From positions 1-52,200 of the forward strand of contig CAJQMI010000020.1 of assembly GCA_905479395.1 (NCBI GenBank): a DNA stretch of 52,200 nucleotides. Reading direction: 5' to 3'. Of this stretch, positions 953 to 29,386 are shown piece after piece. The notes below the pieces were generated by a model that saw nothing but the letters and a program-made list of their open reading frames with translations, was not told the origin of the DNA and did not search any database. Origin of the DNA: an uncultured Flavobacteriales bacterium (GTDB taxonomy: Bacteria > Bacteroidota > Bacteroidia > Flavobacteriales_D > Sanyastnellaceae). Made by a program: the position numbers and the translations under genes. The stretch's first letter is position 1. Each line of letters starts with the position of its first letter.

Positions 953-1476
953 CAGGAGGGTCATACAAGGGGCGTCGCCCCAAGGTGTCAAAATCATTCA
1001 AGGGCAGACCAACCACGGATTTTGGTCGCGAGAGTTTATTCAATGTATTGCGTTCACGCTTGGATATAGAGGGGTTGGCGGTTTTGGAATTATTTGCCGG
1101 AACAGGCATGATCGCGCTGGAGTTTTTTAGCCGAGGCTGTGAATCAGTCGTTTCTGTTGAAAAAGATCCAGCAGCTGTGCGAGGAATGCATAGCATTGCC
1201 CGCTCTTGGGAATTGGATCAATGGCAGATTGTTCGGGCCGATGCCATGGGGTTTGTCAAAAAATCATTGACGCAGTACGATTTGGTCTTCGCAGATCCGC
1301 CGTTTGATCTTCCAGAATTGAAGAAGATTCCTGAGTGGGTGCTCGAGAGCACCTTGTTGGTCCCCGATGGTTGGTTTATATTGGAGCACGGAGAGCGCAC
1401 GGATGTTTCTCATATTCCAGGTTTTAAGGAAACCAGAAAGTATGGTCATGTTCATTTCAGTCTCTTTCAAAAGTGA
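943..1476 (+). CDS. rsmD: 16S rRNA (guanine(966)-N(2))-methyltransferase RsmD
   Basis: A SAM-dependent methyltransferase of 177 residues predicted to modify G966 of 16S rRNA in the small subunit. The N-terminus MRITGGSYKGRR and the RPTTDFGRESLFNVL region are typical of RsmD. The SAM-binding motif ELFAGTG is at about residues 49-55, and the catalytic motif IV DPPF is at 118-121. The frame is open back to 886, but the ATG at 943 gives the family's usual N-terminus. It overlaps the DUF3822 gene by 10 bases and is followed directly by coaD, the standard flavobacterial arrangement. Confidence 0.95.
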   Translation: MRITGGSYKGRRPKVSKSFKGRPTTDFGRESLFNVLRSRLDIEGLAVLELFAGTGMIALEFFSRGCESVVSVEKDPAAVRGMHSIARSWELDQWQIVRADAMGFVKKSLTQYDLVFADPPFDLPELKKIPEWVLESTLLVPDGWFILEHGERTDVSHIPGFKETRKYGHVHFSLFQK

Positions 1477-1947
1477 ATGTCAACCATGAAAAAAGCCGTT
1501 TTTCCCGGGTCTTTTGACCCCATAACAAGAGGCCATATGAACATCTTGGAACGGAGCCTGCCGTTGTTCGATGAAATCATCGTTGCAGTTGGGGTGAATA
1601 GCGCCAAGACATCGATGTTCAGTATGGAAAAGCGTTTGAGGTGCTTGGAGTCGGTCACGGCGAGGTTTTCCAAGGTGAGCGTTCAAACATTCGAAGGCCT
1701 TACCAGCGCTTTTTGCGAAAAGCAAGGAGCTGATTGGTTGATTCGCGGCGTTCGCAATGGGGGTGACTTCGAATACGAACGTACCATTGCTCAAATGACC
1801 AAATCATTGAATCCAAAACTGGAGACAGTGATTTTATTCACGGATCCAGAATTCGCCCACATTCACTCAAATGTTGTTCGGGAAATCTTGCGCAACGGAG
1901 GCGACGCTAGTGCTTTCATCCCGTCAGAATTGAGCAAAGAGCTTTGA
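1477..1947 (+). CDS. coaD: phosphopantetheine adenylyltransferase
   Basis: Catalyses the penultimate step of coenzyme A synthesis, 4'-phosphopantetheine + ATP to dephospho-CoA. The protein has 156 residues (153 if the ATG at 1486 is used, which gives the more typical MKKAVFPGSF start). The nucleotidyltransferase motif is seen as GSFDPITRGH and the substrate loop as RGVRNGGDFEYE; the C-terminal ATP-binding motif is a slight variant, HSNVVRE. The ATG at 1477 abuts the rsmD stop with no gap. The TGA stop at 1945-1947 overlaps the TTG start of the next gene. Confidence 0.95.
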   Translation: MSTMKKAVFPGSFDPITRGHMNILERSLPLFDEIIVAVGVNSAKTSMFSMEKRLRCLESVTARFSKVSVQTFEGLTSAFCEKQGADWLIRGVRNGGDFEYERTIAQMTKSLNPKLETVILFTDPEFAHIHSNVVREILRNGGDASAFIPSELSKEL

Positions 1948-3422
1948 GCACAGTGGGCATTCAACGTTTTTTCAATCTAGCTCTTGTCATTCTCTTTGGC
2001 ATGTCGTGGGGCATTCGCGTCAACCAAGTGCAAGCTCAAAGCCAGCGGCACGTTGGTGAACGCTTCGAGGTTCGTGGAAACTGTGCTCACGAGGATTTGG
2101 GTGAAACAGCACCAAGTCTTCTGCACGTGAGGCAATTGCCATACCCTGGCATCAGCAGCGGGGATTGGTTGGATGAGATACTCGTTGGTTCAGATGGTTC
2201 GTTTGTGTGGGAGCTGGATGAATTTCATCAGCCGACGTTGTTCGAATTGTCGGCACCACCTTGGTCATGGATTGTTGTTGTGCGTCCCAATGAACCTTGT
2301 CACTTGGATCTGAGTCCAGGGAAACAGGCCCGAGGCCTTTACGGAGCTTCAGGTTTCTCAAATTGGAGCGGTTCTCATCCCAGCAATGTTCTGGATTCAC
2401 TTTTGGCGCAACAGCGTTTGCTGAATGGACAGTTGGCCGCCTCTGTTATGCTAAAAATGAACGGCGTAGTTCTCGCAGAAGACGACTCAACGATTCAGCA
2501 AGAGCGATTGGTAGATGAATCGTTTGAAGGGGCATGGTCACATGCTGGAGAAGCAATGGAGGAACCATGGGAGCTGGATTTGTGGTGGCATTCGAAGCTC
2601 AGTTGGATGGTAGCTCGGGGAAGCACGAATGAGGCCTTGGATTCTGTTTGGGCAACCAGCGGAATGGCCTCAGACTTCAGAACAAATCAAGAAAAGTTGC
2701 AATCTGCAGGTTGGTTGAGCGCTTGGAGACAGGTTTATGGCAGCTGGTGGATGAATGACGCACTCGATTGGGATGCAATCAATGCGGCCGTTTTTCTTGC
2801 CAATCGTGACTCGCTGGAGCGCGCAATGAACCAAGTGTTGGATCCGTCCAACCCGGAAGCACTCGAGTTGGCTTGGTTGGACATGGCAATTGTTCAGCCA
2901 TCCAAAGTGGTTGAGCGTGTTTGGGAGAGCATTGCGATGGGGGGATTTTACCAAGATTTGCACAAGGAGTTGCTCCAGGCGCGTCGCAAGGGTCGATTTG
3001 GTTGGACTCCGGAGCCAATTTCATGGGTCCTGCCCAATGGAGATCTGGACTCCCTTTCAGGCCAATGTTTGCAACCTTGGAAAATCTTATTGGTTGTGAA
3101 AGACGGCTCGTCAGCGGCAGCTCGTGAACGCGAATACTTCAATGCACTGATCAAAGAAGCAGATTGCCGTGAATTATGCGCCTTTGTTGTTTCAATAGAC
3201 AGCAATGAAGAAGGCTGGTCGACAACAGTTTCAGGTCGAAAAAGCATCAATGAGGAGGTGGTGTGGATTGGCAACAATCCCCAAGTGTTTGAAGACTACG
3301 GAATCGAAGCTGTTCCCACGGTCATCGCGATCAATGGCGCAGGTGAGCTGAGCCGACAATTAAGCCGACTGCCAAGCGCAGGACTTTCTTCTCAATTGAA
3401 GCAGTTTGTGAAGAAGCATTGA
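1944..3422 (+). CDS. exported protein with C-terminal thioredoxin-like domain
   Basis: A 492-residue protein with an N-terminal signal sequence (hydrophobic core near residues 10-22, cleavage likely after the AQA near residue 32). The middle is rich in Trp and Ser and has no family I recognise. The last 120 or so residues resemble a TlpA/redoxin fold, with the cis-proline motif VPT near residue 465, but there is no CxxC pair, so a disulfide reductase role is doubtful. No ATG lies before the signal sequence: translation must begin at TTG 1944, which overlaps the coaD stop as TTGA, or at GTG 1953. This suggests reinitiation after coaD. Function is unknown. Confidence 0.85.
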   Translation: MSTVGIQRFFNLALVILFGMSWGIRVNQVQAQSQRHVGERFEVRGNCAHEDLGETAPSLLHVRQLPYPGISSGDWLDEILVGSDGSFVWELDEFHQPTLFELSAPPWSWIVVVRPNEPCHLDLSPGKQARGLYGASGFSNWSGSHPSNVLDSLLAQQRLLNGQLAASVMLKMNGVVLAEDDSTIQQERLVDESFEGAWSHAGEAMEEPWELDLWWHSKLSWMVARGSTNEALDSVWATSGMASDFRTNQEKLQSAGWLSAWRQVYGSWWMNDALDWDAINAAVFLANRDSLERAMNQVLDPSNPEALELAWLDMAIVQPSKVVERVWESIAMGGFYQDLHKELLQARRKGRFGWTPEPISWVLPNGDLDSLSGQCLQPWKILLVVKDGSSAAAREREYFNALIKEADCRELCAFVVSIDSNEEGWSTTVSGRKSINEEVVWIGNNPQVFEDYGIEAVPTVIAINGAGELSRQLSRLPSAGLSSQLKQFVKKH

Positions 3423-3445
3423 TGATTTGTTGATTGGAATTCTTG

Positions 3446-4051
3446 TCAGTCGGGAATCGAAGCAACGAGGTCGAGAATGCTCGGATAGGTATTCTCTAAT
3501 AATTCAGGCCCAAAAGGACGAAATTTCCATTGCACATCGGTAATTCCCTCCTCGCTTTGAGGAGCTCCTTTGGTGTCTTTTCCGTCATGATGCGCGTGGA
3601 ACCAGAACGTGGTCTTCAAAATGGGTATGCCGGATTCTTCGTAGGTATGATAAGTGGTCCGCAAATGTCCCGCCAAAGAAAGGCGGTCGATTCCTGTTTC
3701 TTCCGTCACCTCGCGTGCAGCAGCTTCTTCAATGCTTTCCCCTTTCTCAACCTTTCCTTTGGGCAAATCCCAACGGGTGTTGCGCTCAATCCATAGAAAG
3801 GCTCCGTCCCGGTTCTCGACGACGCAACCTGCAGCAAGGACCTCCTGATACAAAATGCAGAAATTCATCCAGAGAGATGCCACGTCACTGCTTGCCAGCG
3901 TTACACCCTTTATGCCAGTGTGTTGACGGAGCAATTGAGGCAATTCTTGAAGTTGTTTTTTGTTCGGCTCTTTGATCACCAAATCATTCTGCTTTGCCTG
4001 GGGATTTTCAGTGAAGAATACCGGACGATTCAAGATATAAACTTCATACAT
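3446..4051 (-). CDS. NUDIX hydrolase
   Basis: About 201 residues from the ATG at 4051. The NUDIX box is complete: G-x5-E-x7-REVTEETGI at roughly residues 99-121, preceded by the RWDLPKGK strand-turn typical of the fold. It hydrolyses an unidentified nucleoside-diphosphate-linked substrate. Start choice is open: MYEVYILN at 4051 looks most like homologues, but ATGs at 4057 and 4060 are in frame, and the one at 4060 would overlap the pyrE start on the other strand. It is divergent from pyrE and converges on the thioredoxin-fold gene, with 23 bases between. Confidence 0.92.
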   Translation of the reverse strand: MYEVYILNRPVFFTENPQAKQNDLVIKEPNKKQLQELPQLLRQHTGIKGVTLASSDVASLWMNFCILYQEVLAAGCVVENRDGAFLWIERNTRWDLPKGKVEKGESIEEAAAREVTEETGIDRLSLAGHLRTTYHTYEESGIPILKTTFWFHAHHDGKDTKGAPQSEEGITDVQWKFRPFGPELLENTYPSILDLVASIPD

Positions 4052-4058
4052 TCGCATC

Positions 4059-4715
4059 ATGATTTTGTCCGTTGAAAGTAGGCGTAAAGTTGCGGAATTC
4101 CTCCTCCGAATTAAAGCGATTGAATTGAACCCCACCGCTCCATTTACTTGGGCCAGTGGACGACGGTCTCCAATCTATTGCGACAATCGAAAAACGCTTA
4201 GTCACCCGAGTGTTCGAACCTTTACACGTCAACTTTGCGTTGAGGAGATTGAGAACCGTTTTGGAAAAGTCGATGCCATTGCTGGTGTAGCTACAGGCGG
4301 CATCGCTTTGGGAGCTCTTGTGGCACAGGAGTTGGGTCTGCCATTTATCTATGTGCGCTCAAAGGCCAAAGACCATGGTCTGGGCAATGCAATTGAAGGG
4401 GATTTGTCCGTGCTATCCAATGTTGTTGTGATCGAGGATTTGATTTCCACAGGTCAAAGCAGCTTAAAAGCGGTTGCGGCATTGCGAGAGGCAGGCGTTG
4501 AGGTAAAAGGTCTTTTGGCCATATTCACTTATGGATTTGATGTTGCAGAAGCGGCCTTTGCTGAGGCCAATTGCATGTGGAGCACATTGACGGACTATTC
4601 GACGATGCTCGATCAGGCAATGCAAGAGGGTTACATCACCCCAGAACAGCGAACATTGCTTGATTCATGGAACAGTGACCCTCAGGCATGGAGCGATAAA
4701 TTCAATGAGCAATGA
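4059..4715 (+). CDS. pyrE: orotate phosphoribosyltransferase
   Basis: Converts orotate and PRPP to orotidine 5'-monophosphate in pyrimidine synthesis. It has 218 residues. The N-terminal FTWASGRRSPIYCDNR substrate loop and the PRPP-binding motif VVVIEDLISTGQSS are clear, and the flexible-loop region RSKAKDHGLGN is present. The ATG at 4059 fits the family N-terminus (helix VAEFLLRIKAIELNP). The stop overlaps the next start as ATGA. The gene is head to head with NUDIX, so its promoter must lie within the NUDIX coding region. Confidence 0.96.
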   Translation: MILSVESRRKVAEFLLRIKAIELNPTAPFTWASGRRSPIYCDNRKTLSHPSVRTFTRQLCVEEIENRFGKVDAIAGVATGGIALGALVAQELGLPFIYVRSKAKDHGLGNAIEGDLSVLSNVVVIEDLISTGQSSLKAVAALREAGVEVKGLLAIFTYGFDVAEAAFAEANCMWSTLTDYSTMLDQAMQEGYITPEQRTLLDSWNSDPQAWSDKFNEQ

Positions 4716-5116
4716 TCATTGAAAGTCCTTTGGTCCAGGCGGGCGCATCTGCTGAGGTATTGTTTGAAGCGCTTCGCAGTCCAGCAATGTTGGAGTCTGT
4801 ATTGCCATCGAATCAGATCAGCGAGTTCGAAGCAACGGATTCTGGATGCTCCTTCAAAGTAGCCGGTGGGTTTGCCATCGTCATTGAGCGGGTGTCAGAA
4901 GAGCGTCCTACATTGATCGAATATGCATCTCAAAAAGGGACGCCTATCCGCTTCGACTTACACGTATTGATCGAGGCCATTGAGGCCAACAAGGCGTCTT
5001 TGCAGGTGCGATGTGATGCCGACTTAAATCCGTTCATGAAGATGATGGCAGAGAAGCCGCTACAGGCCATTTTTAATGGGATGGCAGAAGCGGTTCAGCA
5101 AAAGTACCCTGTTTAG
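4712..5116 (+). CDS. SRPBCC (START-like) family protein
   Basis: A 134-residue soluble protein starting at an ATGA overlap with the pyrE stop. The pattern (N-terminal strand, then VLFEALRSPAMLESVLP, a run of alternating strands and a long C-terminal helix MMAEKPLQAIFNGMAEAVQQ) is that of small SRPBCC ligand-binding proteins, which normally follow pyrE in flavobacteria. The ligand is unknown. Its TAG stop (5114-5116) overlaps the stop of convergent birA by two bases. Confidence 0.85.
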   Translation: MIIESPLVQAGASAEVLFEALRSPAMLESVLPSNQISEFEATDSGCSFKVAGGFAIVIERVSEERPTLIEYASQKGTPIRFDLHVLIEAIEANKASLQVRCDADLNPFMKMMAEKPLQAIFNGMAEAVQQKYPV

Positions 5117-6075
5117 TTTGCCTCAGCATCGAGCTGATCGTAAATCCAAGACCATTGCAATTGCTTGTTGTTTTCGATGGATTGAAGGCTTCCGCTGTCC
5201 TCCGTCTTCTTCCATTCCATGATGCAGCGTCCGGAACCATCCACAGCTGCAATTTTTCCAACTTTTGCCTCGTTCTTCCAGCGGTAAGACTTCCAGATTC
5301 CTTTTGCCAACAAGCACCCGTCGAACAGTTTGCTCATTTCCTGATGGTATGCAGCCGCAGCTGAGCTGCTAAATGTGCAGGCAACCTTCCATTCTTCGAT
5401 GGCCAAACGAACGTTTTTTTCAAGGGACTTGCCCAGGATGTGCGGATCAAATTGATCGGCTTTGATGTTCGGAGCTACTTGAGAAAGAGAAGTGCGATAG
5501 CGTGGCAGATCGGATGATAAAGCATTGATGCCAATTCCGATGACAGAGCCACTGATGTGTTGACCTTTCCATGCATTTTCGATGAGAATTCCACCGCACT
5601 TTTCCCAGATTTTGCCACTTTGCACATACAGATCGTTGGGCCATTTGATCCGAGTGGGCGATGCAGCCGGCTTCAAAGCATCATCGATGGTTTGAAGGGT
5701 CGCAAGGGCAATGGCTTTGTTCAAGGCAAACCAAACGTTTGCATGCAGCGCCAACTTCGCAGACGTGTCTGGCTCCCAATTGATTGCCAAAGTCCAAGCC
5801 AGGTCCAGTCCTTTGCCGTGCTCCCAACGGGCCCCGCGCTGTCCTTTGCCGCTGAGCTGGTGGTCCGTCGTGAAAATTCCAATGTCACCAGACGAGGCAG
5901 TTTTCAACCATTCAATGGCTGATTCGTTTGTGCTGTCACAACGTTCAAAGTGATGTCGGTGAATTTCCAATTCAATCGTGGTTTTGCCCTCGAGCGGGGA
6001 GGTTGTGGTTTGAACAATGCCAAAGGTACGGGGGTCTGGGAATCTTCCCTCCGGACTGTTGGCATGTTTTCGCAA
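5113..6075 (-). CDS. birA: biotin--[acetyl-CoA-carboxylase] ligase
   Basis: Attaches biotin to the biotin carboxyl carrier protein through biotinyl-5'-AMP. Visible motifs are CDSTNESA near the start of the domain, the biotin-AMP loop GKGQRGARW, and IKWPNDLYV followed by GGILIE. There is no DNA-binding domain, so it is the monofunctional form. The longest frame gives 320 residues, with an N-terminal extension of about 40 that family members lack. A promoter-like box, TACCTTTG, lies inside that extension (6028 to 6021 on the minus strand), so the true start is probably a non-ATG codon further in, for example TTG 5970. The stop overlaps that of the SRPBCC gene. Confidence 0.9.
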   Translation of the reverse strand: MRKHANSPEGRFPDPRTFGIVQTTTSPLEGKTTIELEIHRHHFERCDSTNESAIEWLKTASSGDIGIFTTDHQLSGKGQRGARWEHGKGLDLAWTLAINWEPDTSAKLALHANVWFALNKAIALATLQTIDDALKPAASPTRIKWPNDLYVQSGKIWEKCGGILIENAWKGQHISGSVIGIGINALSSDLPRYRTSLSQVAPNIKADQFDPHILGKSLEKNVRLAIEEWKVACTFSSSAAAAYHQEMSKLFDGCLLAKGIWKSYRWKNEAKVGKIAAVDGSGRCIMEWKKTEDSGSLQSIENNKQLQWSWIYDQLDAEAN

Positions 6076-6147
6076 TCCTGAGCGGCATGCAACTGCTTAT
6101 GCATTGTATCTTTCGAGTCATTATCACATTCATAACGCCAGCTTCAT

Positions 6148-6504
6148 TTGGTACAAGAACTGCCGCTGCTCAATGCAGTCATCGAGGGACTTCAAGAAGT
6201 CAAAGGAAAACAGATCACGGTCATGGATTTGCGACACATTCCCCACGCAGTAGCGGGGTGGTTTGTGATTGCTCATGGCACAAGTCGCACCCAAGTTGAA
6301 GCGCTCGCCCAATCGGTAGAAAGCACCACAGCGGAGAAAGCGGCTGAAAAACCATGGGGAAAGCAAGGCCTTCGAAATGGAGAGTGGGCTGTGTTGGATT
6401 ACAGCGATATCGTCGTTCACGTTTTTCACGAAGAGATGCGTGGGCGATATGCGCTCGAAGAATTGTGGGGAGATGCGAACATTGAGACCGTTGACGAAGT
6501 TTGA
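6148..6504 (+). CDS. rsfS: ribosome silencing factor RsfS
   Basis: Binds ribosomal protein uL14 on the 50S subunit and blocks subunit joining when nutrients are scarce. It has 118 residues. The family core is clear: GKQITVMDLRHIPHAVAGWFVIAHGTSRTQVEALA, then WAVLDYSDIVVHVFHEEMRGRYALEELW (quoted as two long strands, residues about 20-54 and 77-106). The start must be TTG at 6148: an in-frame TAA at 6133-6135 lies just upstream, there is no ATG or GTG between, and the first internal ATG is too late. It begins the rsfS-ftsH-DUF2007-cdsA-psd operon. Confidence 0.93.
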   Translation: MVQELPLLNAVIEGLQEVKGKQITVMDLRHIPHAVAGWFVIAHGTSRTQVEALAQSVESTTAEKAAEKPWGKQGLRNGEWAVLDYSDIVVHVFHEEMRGRYALEELWGDANIETVDEV

Positions 6505-20915: not shown

Positions 20916-22034
20916 TCAGTTTTTTCGAACGGGTTTCACTCCTTGAGATTCAAATGATGTCCCTTCAAATTTAACGACAAAGGCATCGGAGAATCCTTGT
21001 TTTTGCATTTGCACTTTGAGTGCGTTGGCTTCCGCCGACTTCGCGCAATTCCCGACAGCGTATTTGTAGAGTCCGTTACGAAGATACTCCACCGCCGACG
21101 GTAGACCTTGCAGTCGGGCATCATCTTCTTTGAGAGGCAGTCCCGCGGTCATGATTTGGACACGGAAGGTAGGTGAAGGGAGTGCCGTTTTTTCTTCAGG
21201 AAGCAATTCAATTGCAGGGGTTTCCCTCCTGCTTTCGGGAGCAGGGTGGTATTTTTCTTTGTAAGTCCTAAAGGCCCGCAGCAATGCAGAGGCCATGAGC
21301 TCTTGACCGGAATTGGAATTCAGAAATTCCTCCTCGGTTGGATTGGTTAAGAATCCCAATTCAACGAGGACAGATGGCATTTGGGTGAAGCATGTCACGT
21401 AATACCCGGCCTGGCGCACCCCGCGATCCTTGCGTCCAACCCGCTGCTTGAATTGCGTTTGGATGAGGCTGCCTAGCTCGAGACTTTGCTGAAGGAATAT
21501 TGATTGGCGCAAGCTCAGAGCGATGTACGTATCAGGGTCGTCGGGTTTGAAACCTTCGTAAAACGTCTCGTAATCCTGCTCGCGTGAGATGAAGGCGTTT
21601 TCTTGCATTGAGACCCGAAGACTCTCTTTGCTCCTGTCCATTCCCATGACAAACGAACTTGAACCGACCGCATTCGGACTGGTAAATGCGTCGCAATGAA
21701 TGCTTATGAAAAGATCTGCGTTGATGTTGTTGGCCAGTTTTACACGCTCCCGAATCTTCGGGTAGGTATCGCCATCCCGCGTCATCACAATTTCCACGTC
21801 GGGAAAGCGTTCGGAGATGTAGTCGCGCAATAGCAGCGCGACATCCAAGGTGACTGTCTTTTCAGTGGCCTTGTATCGGCCGGTTCCTAAATTCCCCGGA
21901 TCTGATCCGCCGTGCCCAGCGTCAATGACCAAAACCATGCTTGGAGCAACAGGAGTGAAAGCAACAGAAAGGAATATCAGCCCTCCCATGGCCCACAGGA
22001 CCGCTCGTTTCGTTAGTTTTGACTGCCGTTTCAT
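20916..22034 (-). CDS. N-acetylmuramoyl-L-alanine amidase with SPOR-like domain
   Basis: Cleaves the amide bond between MurNAc and L-Ala in peptidoglycan. It has 372 residues with an N-terminal membrane/signal segment, then an Amidase_3 domain: VIDAGHGGSDPG (zinc His), FISIHCDAF (zinc His) and SVLVELGFLTNP (catalytic Glu). The last 75 or so residues (FRVQIMTAG to VVKFEG) look like a SPOR domain that would bind denuded glycans at the division site. The frame extends to 22292, but homologues start near MKRQSK. A TAGATTTG box ending at 22044 would start transcription near 22039, which favours the ATG at 22034 over 22043. Confidence 0.93.
   Translation of the reverse strand: MKRQSKLTKRAVLWAMGGLIFLSVAFTPVAPSMVLVIDAGHGGSDPGNLGTGRYKATEKTVTLDVALLLRDYISERFPDVEIVMTRDGDTYPKIRERVKLANNINADLFISIHCDAFTSPNAVGSSSFVMGMDRSKESLRVSMQENAFISREQDYETFYEGFKPDDPDTYIALSLRQSIFLQQSLELGSLIQTQFKQRVGRKDRGVRQAGYYVTCFTQMPSVLVELGFLTNPTEEEFLNSNSGQELMASALLRAFRTYKEKYHPAPESRRETPAIELLPEEKTALPSPTFRVQIMTAGLPLKEDDARLQGLPSAVEYLRNGLYKYAVGNCAKSAEANALKVQMQKQGFSDAFVVKFEGTSFESQGVKPVRKN
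22014..22021 (+). promoter_or_regulatory. -7 box of the lptD promoter
   Basis: TAGTTTTG matches TAnnTTTG exactly and ends 11 bases before the lptD ATG. It lies inside the first codons of the divergent amidase gene. No good -33 element was found. Confidence 0.5.
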
Positions 22035-24504
22035 GCGTTCCATCAAATCTAAAACGTCACGACCCTTGCGCGTCGTCTGTCTTGCACTGATTTTCCGTGC
22101 CCTGATGTGGATAAGCACACCTTCCATGCTGTGCGCACAAATGGAGGGGGATGTCGCTGACTCGCTGACGGTTAGCCAGCAAACGGAGGAGCCTTTTGAA
22201 GTGGATTGGGGAGCTGATGATTCCACCCGTGTGAATGCCATCACGTCCGAGGTCGAATTGTTTGGAAACGCTTTTGTAGCCATGGATGACATTCGCTTGG
22301 AAGCCTATCGCATCGTTTACAGTTCGCAAAAGAATCAAGCCTGCGCTTACGGAATAAGGGATTCATTGGGAGATTGGATTGGACGCCCCGTAATGACGCA
22401 AGGAGGTCAAACGTTCGAGCAAGACGAGCTATGCTTCGATTTGAAATCCCGCCGCGGACTGAGTCGTAAAGCAGTGACTGTTCAAGGGGAAAGTGTTTTT
22501 CACGCCGAGGTAGCCAAACGTCAGAGCGATCAACGCATCCATGTGGCCAATGCCAAATTCACCACGTGCAATGCTGACAATCCGCATTTTCATTTTCATT
22601 TGAAGCGGGCGATTATGATTCCCGGAGAGAAGGTTGTCTCCGGTCCATTTTACCTGAAATTCAGGAAAATCCCTACGCCACTCGCTCTGCCATTTGGATG
22701 GTTCCCGACGCCACCGGATAAACGCAGCCATGGTTTACTGATGCCCGGATACGGAAACGGAGGCGCGTTGGGATTCTTTCTCAAGGACTTGGGGTATTAC
22801 ATGCCCATTGGCGAATACGCCGATACGCGTTTGACTGGGGATATTTACTCTGGTGGTTCTTGGGCGTTGCGCAGCAGCACCAATTACCGGATTCGATACC
22901 GCGCAAGTGGAAACCTAAACCTGAGTTATCAGCGGATTCGCGATGGATTCACGGGGTTGCCAACGCTTTCGCTTTCCAACCAGTTTTTTGTGCGGTGGAG
23001 CCACAGCCAGGACAACCGAGCGCGGCCCAATAGCCGCTTCAATACCAGTGTGAATTTTGGTTCAAACAACCATTTCCAGTCCAACATCACGAGCAACCAG
23101 CAGGATTACCTGACAAACACTTTTCAGTCGAGCATTCAATATTCGCGGTCGTTTCCGGGCAAACCAATTTCGCTCGCCCTCAGCGCACGACATGCTCAAA
23201 ATTCGCAAACGGGCAATGTGAATATCACAGCGCCGGCTATGACGCTCAATTTGCAACGATCGAGTGTGGCCAAACTTCTTGGGATGAGCGCTTCGCGCAT
23301 TCGACTGCTTGATGAGATTGCGGTGTCGGCGTCTTCACGCTTTGAGCAGACGATGCAAGCACCTGACAGTGTGTTTCTCGCGGGCGATTGGTCCAACGTT
23401 TCCTTTCGAAATGGAATCAAACACAATGCATCCGCTTCAAGTCAAATGCGGCTGGGCTTTGTGAGCATCACTCCGAGTTTCCAGTACAACGAGTTTTGGG
23501 CGTTTCAGGAGTTGAATGGTCGCTTAATTGAAGATGAATCAGGAGCCGTGCAACAGGTGACGGATACACTAACGGGCTTTCAAACTACGCGGGATTGGCG
23601 GCTTTCTGCAAATGCTTCCACACGTTTTTATGGCACTTTCGAATTCAATCCCAACAAACGCATTCAGGCGATTCGTCACGTACTCAGTCCCACAATGGGT
23701 CTCAGTTATACACCAGAATTGCAGCGCACTCAAACCGTAAGCTTAAACGATGAATCTTACGAGTTCAATCCTTACAGTTTGAATCGTTTTGTGCCGCAAG
23801 ACATTCGCGCATCAGGTGCGGTGAACTTTGGCCTCAGTCAGAATTTGGAGGCCAAGGTGATGGACAAGGCCACAGGTGATGTGCGTAAGGTTCGTTTGAT
23901 CGACAATTTGGTGACTTCTGCGAATTACAATTTCATAGCGGATTCCTTGGGGTTGAGCGACATCTTCACCCGGGCGAACACGGATTTATTCAATAAGGTT
24001 CGGGTCAATCTCGGAATTTCACACAGCGCTTATGCGAGGGACTCTAGCGGGCAGCGGATTGATCAGTTCCTTGCAAGCCAAGGGAAGCCCATTTTACGCA
24101 TGACGCGAGCAAATGCTGCACTTGGCAGTAGCTTTAACGGAGGGAGTGAGGGAGCATTTCCATGGAATTTCCGTGCTGACTACAACCTCGATTTGCGAAA
24201 AAACTGGAGGGCAGACTTGCAGCGTGACACGTTGATCATGACCCAAAGTGCCCGGGTACGAGGCTCCATCGAAATCATGGATAATTGGCGAGTGGACGTG
24301 AACACCGGATACGATTTGGTCCGCAAGGAATGGACCCCAACGCAACTGGACGTTTATTGGGACCTTCATTGCTGGGAACTGTCGGTGAACTGGGTGCCGA
24401 TCGGTGTCAGGAAGAGCATTTACCTGCGACTCAACATCAAGGCTTCAATGCTCAAAGACCTGAAGGTGGAGTACCGCAACAACAACACAGACTTGCTGTT
24501 CTGA
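22033..24504 (+). CDS. lptD: LPS-assembly protein LptD
   Basis: The outer-membrane barrel that inserts lipopolysaccharide. It has 823 residues from the ATG at 22033, with a signal peptide ending near MLCAQ. The OstA-like beta-jellyroll follows (SEVELFGNAFVAMDDIRLEAY, about residues 70-200). The barrel has many alternating hydrophobic strands rich in Asn, Ser and aromatic residues, including ATRHVLSPTMGLSYTP-type repeats near 545. The frame is open from 21850, but homology and the signal peptide start at MRSIKS. The start codon overlaps the amidase start codon on the other strand. Confidence 0.92.
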   Translation: MRSIKSKTSRPLRVVCLALIFRALMWISTPSMLCAQMEGDVADSLTVSQQTEEPFEVDWGADDSTRVNAITSEVELFGNAFVAMDDIRLEAYRIVYSSQKNQACAYGIRDSLGDWIGRPVMTQGGQTFEQDELCFDLKSRRGLSRKAVTVQGESVFHAEVAKRQSDQRIHVANAKFTTCNADNPHFHFHLKRAIMIPGEKVVSGPFYLKFRKIPTPLALPFGWFPTPPDKRSHGLLMPGYGNGGALGFFLKDLGYYMPIGEYADTRLTGDIYSGGSWALRSSTNYRIRYRASGNLNLSYQRIRDGFTGLPTLSLSNQFFVRWSHSQDNRARPNSRFNTSVNFGSNNHFQSNITSNQQDYLTNTFQSSIQYSRSFPGKPISLALSARHAQNSQTGNVNITAPAMTLNLQRSSVAKLLGMSASRIRLLDEIAVSASSRFEQTMQAPDSVFLAGDWSNVSFRNGIKHNASASSQMRLGFVSITPSFQYNEFWAFQELNGRLIEDESGAVQQVTDTLTGFQTTRDWRLSANASTRFYGTFEFNPNKRIQAIRHVLSPTMGLSYTPELQRTQTVSLNDESYEFNPYSLNRFVPQDIRASGAVNFGLSQNLEAKVMDKATGDVRKVRLIDNLVTSANYNFIADSLGLSDIFTRANTDLFNKVRVNLGISHSAYARDSSGQRIDQFLASQGKPILRMTRANAALGSSFNGGSEGAFPWNFRADYNLDLRKNWRADLQRDTLIMTQSARVRGSIEIMDNWRVDVNTGYDLVRKEWTPTQLDVYWDLHCWELSVNWVPIGVRKSIYLRLNIKASMLKDLKVEYRNNNTDLLF
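22044..22051 (-). promoter_or_regulatory. -7 box of the amidase promoter
   Basis: On the minus strand TAGATTTG matches TAnnTTTG exactly; it directly abuts an ATG at 22043 and lies nine bases before the ATG at 22034. It sits inside the lptD coding region. Confidence 0.5.
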
Positions 24505-25773: not shown

Positions 25774-25809
25774 AAAAAAAACTCCGCTTTGGCCGGGGCC
25801 AAAGCAGAG
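25774..25809 (-). terminator. rho-independent terminator of the lipoprotein operon
   Basis: Read on the minus strand, CTCTGCTTTGGCC / GGCCAAAGCGGAG forms a long stem (one mismatch) followed by eight T residues. It ends transcription of the three-lipoprotein operon at 25835-29309 and lies just after the convergent pabA stop. Confidence 0.88.
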
Positions 25810-25834
25810 CTTCAATCGTTGTGAATTGCAGCGA

Positions 25835-26416
25835 TTATTGTTCGCGGTAGGTAGACATGACCTCTTCGAAGGTATCTTTAAATTGGTCGTAATTGTATTC
25901 AGCGCGAATGCGTTCCTCTTGTTTCAACCCTTCGACATAAGCATCGGCCAATTCACCGCCGCTCAACTCGATGGCGAGATACGCGATGTACTTTTTACCT
26001 TCTGTCATGGTCAATTCTTGACAAATGGTGATGGCTCCTGTCAATTTCTTATTGACGATGGTGCGGGACAATTCATTGAACTTGCTAGTCGCTTCCTCCG
26101 TTGTTCCGAATCCGAGCTGCGTGGCTTGGTTTTCGGCGACAATTTCAACTGTGGCCTCGACTGCTCTAGCGAGGGTGGCCTCTGCATTCTGTCGGGCAAT
26201 TTTCTTTGCAATTTCACGCTGTGGGCTTGTGCCAGTTGCAGAAGCACGGAAGTATTCCCCATTGGTCAAGAACTCAGGTCCTGAACAGTACTCGACAATG
26301 CGCACTTCTCCGCGCGTTTCTGGTGTCGATGAGGTGTCTTTTCCACTTTTGCAGCCGGTGAGCAACAATGCAGTGGTCGCGCCCATGAGCGCGAAGGTGT
26401 GAAGGGCTTTATTCAT
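25835..26416 (-). CDS. LPP20-like lipoprotein
   Basis: About 193 residues from the ATG at 26416; the frame is open to 26473 but the lipoprotein signal starts at MNKALHTFALMG. The lipobox is LLTGC. The rest is a compact alpha/beta domain: REIAKKIARQNAEATLARAVEATVEIVAENQ is the long first helix of an LPP20-type domain, followed by strands with AITICQELTMTEGKKYIAYLAIEL. The C-terminus is charged. It is the third of three lipoproteins in a row, 95 bases after the second. No function is known. Confidence 0.8.
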   Translation of the reverse strand: MNKALHTFALMGATTALLLTGCKSGKDTSSTPETRGEVRIVEYCSGPEFLTNGEYFRASATGTSPQREIAKKIARQNAEATLARAVEATVEIVAENQATQLGFGTTEEATSKFNELSRTIVNKKLTGAITICQELTMTEGKKYIAYLAIELSGGELADAYVEGLKQEERIRAEYNYDQFKDTFEEVMSTYREQ

Positions 26417-26511
26417 AATAATCGTAATTTCAGTTGTTGGATGGCAAGTTGGTGAATTCAATAAACATGCCAAAATGTTTGTGTGCCAGATTTAAAGTGC
26501 GCGTATGAGCC

Positions 26512-27918
26512 TCATTGGTACAAAGCGTTGACCAGTTGCCTTAGAAAACGGCCTTTTATCTCCAATGTCGCTTTTCGATATGCTTCTGCGTGGGCTGTTT
26601 CCCAGCTGTTGTGCACCCCTTTGATGTCGCTCAAATTCTGCTGCAAAATCGGAGTTCCGTCTTGTGCCTTCAATACAACCGAAGCATTCAGGAATGCGGT
26701 AAAAAATCCTGAGCCTGACCCTCCGTTTCGGGTGTCCGAGTCCAATGCCAAGATGAGGTCGGCGTCTTTCTTGCTTTCGACCCATGCCACCCCTTGGTCG
26801 CTGAGGCCTTCTGCTATTGCATCCCGCAGCAATCGCTGCTCTCGTTTTGTGCCCCGCGTTTTTTCTGTTGTGTTGAAGTAAATGGTCGGTGGAGTGAGGG
26901 CGATCGGAATGGATAAAGCAGGGACAGGAAGGTGGGTTAAAAAATCCCGTGCAGGAGATGATTCAATGCGAGGTGCCAATTGATCAAGGTCCAACGCAAT
27001 GTTCAATTCGGAATGAAGGGTTCCCGGTTCGAATTCACTCAATCCGATGGTCACTTCACCGGCAGGATTGGTTTGTCCTCTATCGCTTTTAGGCAGGGTT
27101 CCACGGCTGTAACGCCAGATGACAGGGATGTTGCTCAAATGCCGGTCGTCGAGTGTTGCCTTGCAGATGATTGCACCGCGGTAACGGCCTGCAAAGGAGA
27201 GGGCAAGCTGGTTTTTTTCAGTTTGGAGGTGAATGTCGCTCATCATTCGAGAGATGCCGTCCAAAGCTGCGCGATCCAGTGCGATTTCTCCCTTTGAAGT
27301 TTGCCAGAGATTGATCTCACCCCAGTGATTTTCCAGGTCCTCCAAGCACCTGATGTATCCGTCTATCGCCATGGCGATGTTGCCTTGCTTGTGGGAACTG
27401 AGCGCCGATTCAAAGTGTCCTCCAGCAATCGCTAGATCTGCTGCTTTGCGTTCCTCTAAAATCCGCTGATACGTGGCTTTGTTGAGCCGGTAGTACGCCC
27501 AGATTTCCGTTTCGTTTTCGTAGCGTCCAACCAGCTCATATCCCTCGAGATCTTCTGTGGCAGCGCTTTTGATTCTTTCTTCAAAACTCTGTCCGGTGAT
27601 GCCTTGAAATTGAGTGGTGTGAAGGATGGAGGAGGATTCAATTTTCACACGAATCTGACCGGCGAGTTCCGCAAGTGCGCGTTGCTGTGCCGTGCCAAAA
27701 GCGTCGGCATCGAATTGGGCTTTGCTCGCACTCGCAATGCCAATGTAATCGCTGCTCAGACGGGGACGCTCATTGATCCACTCAGGGGTTTCTCCCCATT
27801 GATTCGACCCCGCACATCCACCTAAAACCAATGCAAGCATGAGGCATCCAGCAAGGCTTCCAAACAAGTTTCCAGTTCTGAAAACCATGGCGATTGAGTT
27901 TTTGTCTGATCCAATCAT
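26512..27918 (-). CDS. LPP20-like lipoprotein with extra C-terminal domain
   Basis: A 468-residue lipoprotein; the lipobox is LVLGGC, Cys35 counting from the ATG at 27918, which overlaps the upstream stop as ATGA. The ATG at 27888 would give a more usual signal length. An LPP20-like domain covers about residues 35-155 (TPEWINERP, YIGIASASK, GTAQQRALAELAGQIRVKIESSS, YYRLNKATY). A helical linker, a carboxypeptidase-like strand domain (about 250-330) and a C-terminal domain (about 350-465; DAIAEGLSDQGVAWV, DADLILALDSDTR) follow. The C-terminal part recalls FlgO/CsgG-type modules, but I am not sure. It is probably attached to the outer or inner membrane. Confidence 0.82.
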   Translation of the reverse strand: MIGSDKNSIAMVFRTGNLFGSLAGCLMLALVLGGCAGSNQWGETPEWINERPRLSSDYIGIASASKAQFDADAFGTAQQRALAELAGQIRVKIESSSILHTTQFQGITGQSFEERIKSAATEDLEGYELVGRYENETEIWAYYRLNKATYQRILEERKAADLAIAGGHFESALSSHKQGNIAMAIDGYIRCLEDLENHWGEINLWQTSKGEIALDRAALDGISRMMSDIHLQTEKNQLALSFAGRYRGAIICKATLDDRHLSNIPVIWRYSRGTLPKSDRGQTNPAGEVTIGLSEFEPGTLHSELNIALDLDQLAPRIESSPARDFLTHLPVPALSIPIALTPPTIYFNTTEKTRGTKREQRLLRDAIAEGLSDQGVAWVESKKDADLILALDSDTRNGGSGSGFFTAFLNASVVLKAQDGTPILQQNLSDIKGVHNSWETAHAEAYRKATLEIKGRFLRQLVNALYQ

Positions 27919-29309
27919 TGCACGAGACGTAGCGCCTCTGCCTCAACACGTGAGCGCGTGGCATTGGCTATTTGATCCACAGCCTCGTCGATCATTGAGA
28001 CCTCGGACTTCAGGTTCGCGTTGGCTTGAAGCTGGGTCATCAGATCGCGGCGTCCCAAGCGCCACATGCTTCCGTTGCTGCGCGCAGGGTAAATGTTTTT
28101 GTGATCGCCACCATAGCGCGCATATTCGGTGTTGTCGCTTTGTTCACGCTTGATGATTTCCGTCATCTCTGTTTTTCCCGTTGCAAGCGAAATCAGTGCC
28201 AGTTGCACGGTCACCGTGATGGTGCGCGATTGACGGTATTTTTGATAATTCACACTGCGGTACTTGGTCTCATACACCTTCTTGCCATCTTCGTTGACTT
28301 TGGCGACTTTGTATCCTTCAAATCCTCGCGTGTCGATGCGTTGAAGAGATGAGGTGGAAACATCGCAAGAAACAACCGTTGCCTTCAAAATGGCTCTGGC
28401 TCCCATGAGCTCTCCAACTTCCACAGCTGAATTTGCATCAATTACACCGCTCAGAGACAATTGTTGCTCTTGAAGAATGAGTTGCTGATTCTCTCGGTCT
28501 ACCAAGTGCAAAAAGGGGTCTTTGCTTTTGCTCAGAGCTTGCTCCACATAGGACTTGAGCTTGTTCTCCATGCCTGTTCGATTTGAGCCGTTTTCAAAAT
28601 TGACGAGTGCGATGCCGTACTGTCCTTTTTCAAGGCATTCATCTCGCAACATTTTGGCATCCTTAAAATTGTCATCTCTCGAGACGCACGCGTTGAAATC
28701 GGCGTAGGCAGAACGCCAGTGGCTGTTCTCCAGTGCATTCAGTCCGTTTCGGTAAAGCGGCTCGCAAAAAGCAATGTCTGCGAGTGACCGTGAGTCTCTA
28801 TAATCAGCTTCCAATCGAAAAACCTCGTCAAAAGTCTTCAAGGCCTCGCTAAACTTCTCTGCTTCGAGATGTGCCAGGGCTTCCTCATAGACATCTTCCA
28901 AATGATCATTTTTGACCCGGTTATAAGCTGCTTCAGTGTCGCCGAGAATGAGCAGTCCAATGCCCAGCCTTTCCACCTTCGTTTGGTAGGTTTTTGCTTT
29001 TTCAAAAGCTGCAACTGCGACCGCACGGTTTCCAGCGAGACGCGCCTCATCAAAGCGTGCCAAGTGATCATTGAGCACCCATTGTCCTGCACGCTGCAAT
29101 CCAGCAAGTCCATCGGTGTTGAAGGGGTCTTTGGATACCGCCGTGAAATAAAAATTAGCGGCCTGCGACATCATTCCGACCTCTTCCATCTTTATGCCAC
29201 GCTTCACAAAGGCTTTGGACCCAGAACAACTGGAGAGCACGATCAAAGAACACATTGTTAGAATGAGCGTGAACGAGCGGAAAAGGTTGGTTTTGACGGT
29301 CGGTAGCAT
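27915..29309 (-). CDS. TPR-containing lipoprotein
   Basis: A 464-residue lipoprotein with lipobox IVLSSC and N-terminal signal MLPTVKTNLFRSFTLILTMC. From about residue 35 to 240 it has helical repeats that look like tetratricopeptide units (FFTAVSKDPFNTDGLAGLQRA, KFSEALKTFDEVFRLEADY, WRSAYADFNACVSRDDNFKDA). The second half (about 270-450) is a mixed alpha/beta domain containing GARAILKATVVSCDVSTSS and TITVTVQLALISLATGKTE, reminiscent of CsgG-like periplasmic folds. It is the first gene of the three-lipoprotein operon, with an ATGA overlap to the next. Function is unknown. Confidence 0.82.
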   Translation of the reverse strand: MLPTVKTNLFRSFTLILTMCSLIVLSSCSGSKAFVKRGIKMEEVGMMSQAANFYFTAVSKDPFNTDGLAGLQRAGQWVLNDHLARFDEARLAGNRAVAVAAFEKAKTYQTKVERLGIGLLILGDTEAAYNRVKNDHLEDVYEEALAHLEAEKFSEALKTFDEVFRLEADYRDSRSLADIAFCEPLYRNGLNALENSHWRSAYADFNACVSRDDNFKDAKMLRDECLEKGQYGIALVNFENGSNRTGMENKLKSYVEQALSKSKDPFLHLVDRENQQLILQEQQLSLSGVIDANSAVEVGELMGARAILKATVVSCDVSTSSLQRIDTRGFEGYKVAKVNEDGKKVYETKYRSVNYQKYRQSRTITVTVQLALISLATGKTEMTEIIKREQSDNTEYARYGGDHKNIYPARSNGSMWRLGRRDLMTQLQANANLKSEVSMIDEAVDQIANATRSRVEAEALRLVQ

Positions 29310-29386
29310 CGGATGAATTCAAGCGCCAAGTTAATGCGAATGCGCCTTCAGTGAAGCGAATTTCGTGCCAAGCTTAAATCCTGATT

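Follow-up and report, generated by a model that had tools for sequence, protein, structure and literature searches.

Co-inherited CsgG-type and LPP20-type lipoproteins with sigma-54-type promoter motifs in a flagellum-less flavobacterium

Three neighboring lipoprotein genes in the genome of an uncultured Flavobacteriales bacterium, given the working names P1, P2 and P3, encode proteins whose co-function is well supported. We propose, at slightly less than even confidence, that the three proteins make up an outer-membrane lipoprotein complex, a ring or scaffold that would face the periplasm and respond to stress. The observations behind this proposal are the gene structure of the locus, the lipoboxes, the domain relations, the conservation and co-inheritance of the genes, the promoter motifs, the presence of rpoN and the absence of FliF-type genes; from them we infer a physical complex, its membrane side, its ring geometry and its bracing or stress role.

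Introduction

Most of what is known about LPP20-type and CsgG-type lipoproteins comes from flagellar rings, from curli secretion and from a small number of antigens. In the SHS2 family, ring formation is reported to accompany extra residues inserted after the SHS2 helix and before the second strand, and the ring-forming SHS2 proteins FlgP and FlgT carry a beta-hairpin at this insert (PMC12222027). A co-inherited trio in bacteria that lack flagella offers a route to the role of LPP20 and CsgG folds outside flagella and curli, and a common sigma-54-type promoter connects this trio with a regulon reported to comprise chaperone and envelope-stress genes, which makes its role directly testable. The domain families concerned are known ones, in a combination for which a search of the open-access literature found no description.

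In this study, we analyze the three genes within the window, the whole stretch of 52,200 nt that was examined (assembly GCA_905479395.1, contig CAJQMI010000020.1, positions 1 to 52,200; GTDB lineage Bacteria; Bacteroidota; Bacteroidia; Flavobacteriales_D; Sanyastnellaceae). The genes occupy 25835-29309 of the minus strand, and their distribution was surveyed in a sample of 149 genomes of the class. An earlier reading of the DNA, here called the original prediction, had described the locus as a three-lipoprotein operon. The sigma-54-type motifs found before P1 and, separately, before P3, the wide and shuffled co-inheritance of the genes and a paralogue of P3 all go beyond that reading.

Results and Discussion

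Organization of the locus

Three consecutive lipobox-bearing genes had been claimed for this locus, and all are present, each beginning with a signal peptide and a lipobox (Table 1). The lipobox cysteine (C28 in P1, C25 in the 458-aa frame of P2 and C22 in P3) is kept in every aligned relative, save one P2 row with a mis-called N-terminus. The ATGA overlap of the first two genes (-4, or -1 nt) and the 95-nt gap before the third were confirmed as well; the overlap recurs in most relatives, where the gap spans 44-117 nt. Across 30 loci of this genome and its relatives, the order is P1-P2-P3 wherever the contig extends far enough. The original prediction also placed the genes on one transcript ending at a strong terminator. 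The terminator was upheld, with a stem fold z-score of -3.9 and 0 of 200 shuffles equally good, but the single transcript is doubtful because a conserved sigma-54-type promoter motif sits within the P2-P3 gap.

Table 1. Features of the P1-P2-P3 locus, in window coordinates.
Feature	Position	Strand	Basis or remark
Sigma-54-type motif of P1-P2, TTGGCACGAAATTCGC	29357..29371	(-)	47 nt before P1 start
P1, lipoprotein, TPR region + CsgG domain, 464 aa	27915..29309	(-)	
P1 TPR-like helical region, residues ~33-225	28635..29213	(-)	TPR families in most members
P1 CsgG domain, residues ~238-464	27918..28598	(-)	Pfam and profile-profile match
P2, lipoprotein	26512..27918	(-)	468 aa from ATGA start; 458 aa if from 27888
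P2 LPP20 domain	27484..27786	(-)	Pfam; PDB profile match 4kzs (HP1454), E=8.8e-5
P2 insert, SHS2 helix to second strand, residues ~78-117	27538..27657	(-)	Candidate beta-hairpin
P2 Ig/macroglobulin-like domain, residues ~238-310	26959..27177	(-)	Big_1 matches, AF2 model, Foldseek
P2 C-terminal LptE/DUF4136-like domain, residues ~324-457	26518..26919	(-)	Foldseek, DUF4136
Sigma-54-type motif of P3, TTGGCATGTTTATTGAA	26459..26473	(-)	42 nt before P3 start
P3, LPP20-fold lipoprotein, 193 aa	25835..26416	(-)	
Intrinsic terminator	25778..25813	(-)	16-pair stem + T-run

P1 joins a TPR region to a CsgG domain

The first gene had been described as TPR plus CsgG-like, and domain searches agree. P1 matches the CsgG family (PF03783) with E=8e-7 and 29.0 bits, against a curated cut-off of 20.8 bits, and Pfam matches to CsgG and TPR_2 were obtained in 24/24 and 21/24 of its relatives, respectively; the TPR region also has weak NCBIfam TraC/BamD matches. 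A single CsgG sequence matched P1 only in part, and a family profile of E. coli CsgG and Bacteroidota homologues was required, with which the C-terminal half of P1 aligned over the full CsgG length (E=2.8e-11). What we take to be the two transmembrane-hairpin regions of CsgG both lie within this alignment, the first being longer in P1 than in CsgG. Beta-periodicity is absent from the P1 hairpin regions, although true CsgG fails the same test, which is hence non-discriminating.

The extent of this alignment, hairpin regions included, favors a reading in which P1 is a CsgG-type outer-membrane pore with P2 and P3 as periplasmic adaptors, in the manner of CsgE and CsgF for CsgG. P1 is, however, no close relative of CsgG, because E. 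coli CsgG as a query had no match in this genome, and among the scanned neighbor genes of the window (LptD, RidA, GATase, saccharopine DH and LytB) there is neither a curli-type substrate gene nor any of the curli genes csgA, B, E and F. P1 resembles the curli channel in its full-length CsgG domain and lipobox but departs from it in having ~200 additional residues of TPR region, a longer first hairpin region and other partners, and a pore of this kind seems to us unlikely.

P1 could also be an LpoA/LpoB-like activator of peptidoglycan synthases, built of TPRs and an LpoB-like fold, with P2 and P3 as partners. The combination of TPRs with a CsgG-type fold suits such a role, as do weak LpoB profile matches in 22 of the 24 P1 members and, outside the class, a CsgG/LpoB-type protein that adjoins the P2 homologue in L172 and scores 27.4 bits with LpoB, above the cut-off. 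Yet the P1 of the window reaches 14.6 bits with LpoB (PF13036), below the cut-off of 22.3, while CsgG scores higher. A conserved synthase neighbor is likewise absent, since the genes flanking the trio are mostly not conserved, and we consider a synthase activator improbable.

P2 and P3 are related through the LPP20 fold

LPP20 plus a C-terminal module was the prediction for the second gene, and both parts were recovered. P2 exceeds the cut-off for LPP20 (PF02169; 33.4 against 25.9 bits), a family matched in 24/24 relatives, and its AF2 model (mean pLDDT 82) places the LPP20 domain first, followed by a helical hairpin, an Ig/macroglobulin-like domain and an LptE/DUF4136-like C-terminal domain. 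Among the relatives, Big_1 is matched in 9/24 and DUF4136 in 5/24 (best E 8.7e-5). Foldseek aligned the C-terminal domain with LptE chains at E 4e-5 to 1e-3 and TM (target) 0.36-0.44, and its other matches included Cj1090c and an A. baumannii minor lipoprotein. This fold match, along with lptD lying ~2 kb away, had prompted a reading of P2 as a substitute LptE, which was ruled out: P2 has no match to the LptE family (PF04390), the genome encodes a separate LptE that does (G000:C75), and lptD is no conserved neighbor.

Within the LPP20 domain, P2 has an insert of ~30-40 residues that is conserved in the alignment of its relatives. Beta periodicity is seen at residues 73-90 and around 105-115, and the monomer model has low pLDDT at residues 83-111, inside the insert. 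Judged from the models, P2 appears to carry the ring-marking insert of LPP20/SHS2 proteins, at a position apparently matching the beta-hairpin of the ring-formers FlgP and FlgT (PMC12222027), and P3 appears not to, the same position being predicted helical.

P3 is the most conserved of the three proteins, and its assignment to LPP20 was borne out by fold and by homology, not by Pfam, where a search with PF02169 gave no match for the P3 of the window and weak matches in 8/24 relatives. Searched against the whole PDB, the P3 model (AF2, pLDDT 75.7) had H. pylori Lpp20 as its top match (5ok8, E=5e-3, prob 1.00, target TM 0.63), followed by other H. pylori relatives. Comparison of the alignments by hhalign also found P3 homologous to the LPP20 domain of P2 (E=8.6e-6, prob 83).

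The three genes are inherited together in varying arrangements

Among the 149 class genomes, P1 occurs in 26, P2 in 26 and P3 in 31, and the complete trio, which the original prediction had proposed to look for as a unit in other genomes, is present in 25 genomes of ten families. P2-bearing genomes (n=26) contain P1 in 25 cases and P3 in all 26, and P2-P3 without P1 is the case in f26; Fisher p for co-occurrence is ~1e-26 to 1e-21, values that ignore phylogeny and so overstate its strength. The three genes are adjacent in 13 genomes, including the order P3-P1-P2 and one divergent case, whereas P1-P2 are paired with P3 elsewhere in 8, and P3-P2 are paired with P1 elsewhere in 4. Because the arrangements differ, neighbor inheritance alone is insufficient to account for the co-occurrence, and genes that are kept together though separated point to joint function more strongly than synteny by itself would. 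Beyond the class, a few families have full-length P2 homologues, some of which stand beside a P3-like or CsgG/LpoB-type gene. Since LPP20 and CsgG relations were found and the trio is conserved, the original prediction stands on the two points, domain relation and conservation as a unit, by which it had asked to be judged.

The same data bear on whether the genes encode three separate lipoproteins that share regulation and inheritance and form no physical complex. P3 is indeed separable: it has its own promoter motif, and 5 of the 31 P3-bearing genomes lack both P1 and P2. But the near-perfect co-occurrence and the P1-P2 overlap in most relatives speak against full independence, and we assign this possibility a low probability.

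The absence of flagellar genes, noted originally for the window, extends to the class: a YscJ/FliF gene was found in 0/149 genomes, that of the window included, while positive controls were detected. The trio as part of a flagellar FlgO/P/T ring was therefore ruled out. It is very unlikely, too, that the trio serves the type IX secretion/gliding machine as an accessory ring. In support of that idea, the LPP20 rings of flagella are motor accessories, the remFG-sprCDBF operon of F. psychrophilum is driven by sigma-54 (PMC9723704), and GldL is present in 26/26 P2-bearing genomes. GldL, however, is near-universal, so its association with the trio is without information (141/149 genomes, against only about 26 for the trio), and the genes on either side of the trio are mostly not conserved.

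Sigma-54-type promoter motifs precede P1 and P3

Alignment of the P2-P3 gap across the genus revealed a conserved block, TTTGGCAYGCTWATTG, built like a sigma-54 promoter of the -24/-12 type. Its core, TTGGCAYG, is conserved in 19/19 aligned genus members, and at -12 most P3 motifs read GA where GC is canonical. A scan for TGGCACGN4TTGCW, allowing <=2 mismatches within 120 nt of the start, located the motif upstream of 56/93 P3 genes and 30/75 P1 genes, counts drawn from related sequences and not independent, as against 14/469 control ORFs and 4/88 P2 genes in the same scan. Distances from motif to start cluster at about 25-70 nt. The P3 motif is retained in families that keep P3 apart from P1 (L117, L119, L121 and L124), and among the more distant families most have a P1 without the motif. 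A scan for sigma-70-type promoters returned a single weak site, below the number that chance would give.

In this genome the strict pattern is matched 14 times, compared with once for the reversed control. Intergenic matches include those before P1, P3, a P3 paralogue (G000:C29), groES-groEL and a gene for a predicted outer-membrane beta-barrel protein; most of the remaining ones fall inside long open frames and probably arise by chance. The genome has an rpoN (sigma-54) gene. In F. psychrophilum, sigma-54 is reported to serve genes of protein quality control and envelope stress; its mapped promoters there control groESL, dnaK, htpG, clpB and skp, along with exported proteins whose function is unknown (PMC9723704). 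The presence of groESL in the lists of both species supports the identification of the motif. With one motif before P1 and a separate one before P3, the trio probably comprises two co-regulated units, P1-P2 and P3, rather than one transcript. Promoter analogy with this one other species suggests a link to stress, and the trio is probably stress-regulated. Separately, a sigma-54 activator gene overlaps the lptE start in this genome.

A proposed outer-membrane complex

In Bacteroidota, lipoproteins exposed at the surface are expected to have an acidic export signal directly behind the lipidated cysteine. At least two acidic residues at positions +2 to +6 were found in 0/24 P1, 0/23 P2 and 3/24 P3 proteins, and this absence of the signal suggests a periplasmic face. 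For all three proteins we predict lipidation and an anchor in the outer membrane, most likely with the protein facing the periplasm.

Because the CsgG and LPP20/SHS2 families both include ring-formers, P2 bears the candidate insert and P3 is helical there, we propose P1 as the ring, P2 as its partner and P3 as an accessory. P1 would form a CsgG-type ring with TPR arms reaching into the periplasm; P2, using its LptE-like domain and the LPP20 domain with the hairpin, would stack on or around this ring; and P3 would join as an LPP20 accessory. The complex would brace or maintain the envelope, expressed from two sigma-54-type promoters, one for P1-P2 and one for P3, of the class that serves chaperone and envelope-stress genes in the related flavobacterium. 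The envelope ring or secretion scaffold first suggested for the locus is a reasonable reading, the ring itself being a proposal.

Relation to known systems

Proteobacteria have a lipoprotein trio of CsgG/HfaB, DUF4810 and DUF799 (GNA1162) proteins, in which, likewise, two lipoproteins partner one of the CsgG type; the Pfam search of the present trio listed no DUF4810 or DUF799 match. The FlgO/FlgP/FlgT system of Vibrio and Campylobacter shares with the trio the LPP20/SHS2 folds of FlgP and FlgT, but neither the P1-type union of TPR with CsgG nor anything like P2's C-terminal half is described for FlgP; any relation would be one of domains only. A broader idea, doubtful though conceivable, is that non-flagellar bacteria use a sigma-54-controlled LPP20/CsgG lipoprotein ring to brace the outer membrane in general or as a scaffold for its repair; if so, the flagellar FlgO/P/T rings would be one specialized use of an older envelope-ring toolkit.

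LipL41 of Leptospira is related to P1 through an NCBIfam match to residues 262-385 (E=3.8e-6) that is far below the cut-off. LipL41, like FlgP and FlgT a precedent for rings, assembles into large 36-mers of two 18-fold layers and contains TPRs, although these are C-terminal and those of P1 N-terminal, and partners of the P2 or P3 type are not named in the available part of the LipL41 report (PMC3861479). H. pylori Lpp20 (HP1456, PF02169) provides the closest solved fold to P3, which the PF02169 profile does not detect, while the N-terminal domain of P2 passes the Pfam cut-off and is followed by three further domains.

Other genes with the sigma-54-type motif

The sigma-54-type motif that precedes P1 and P3 also lies upstream of a P3 paralogue elsewhere in the window's own genome, 23 nt from the start, and many other genomes of the class likewise carry a second P3-like gene. 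In the same genome the motif precedes groES and a gene for a predicted outer-membrane beta-barrel protein, which is a possible further member of the regulon.

Features in and beyond the window (G000, the window's own genome; C, contig; L, locus)
Feature	Location	Remark
P3 paralogue	G000:C29:3831-4397 (L129)	188 aa lipoprotein; adjoins msrA
sigma-54 activator - LptE - unknown - SecG - GroES - GroEL cluster	G000:C75 (L191) 974-6241	
sigma-54-type motif	G000:C75 (L191) 2958-2972	upstream of groES
sigma-54-type motif	G000:C5:30223-30237	23 nt upstream of predicted beta-barrel gene start
predicted outer-membrane beta-barrel protein	L192:2924-3700 (G000:C5)	
lptD	window 21850-24504	about 2 kb from trio
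LPP20-ARPP-1 domain fusion	L173:7086-8996	genome outside class

Neighbourhood and relatives of the trio

The proximity of lptD and the LptE-like domain of P2 are, taken together, suggestive; the neighbourhood of the trio with lptD is not conserved. Where P1 stands apart from P2-P3, in family f22 (L120, L128), it has two conserved flanking genes of ~150-160 aa and ~600 aa. Other families of the class carry CsgG-domain genes in adjacent pairs (G061:C78, G138:C55, G097:C53, G141:C94), an arrangement that differs from the trio. P3 homologues are also present in metagenome bins titled 'Chryseobacterium gleum' (L050, L057, L058, L071, L080, L088, L089), a label that is probably wrong.
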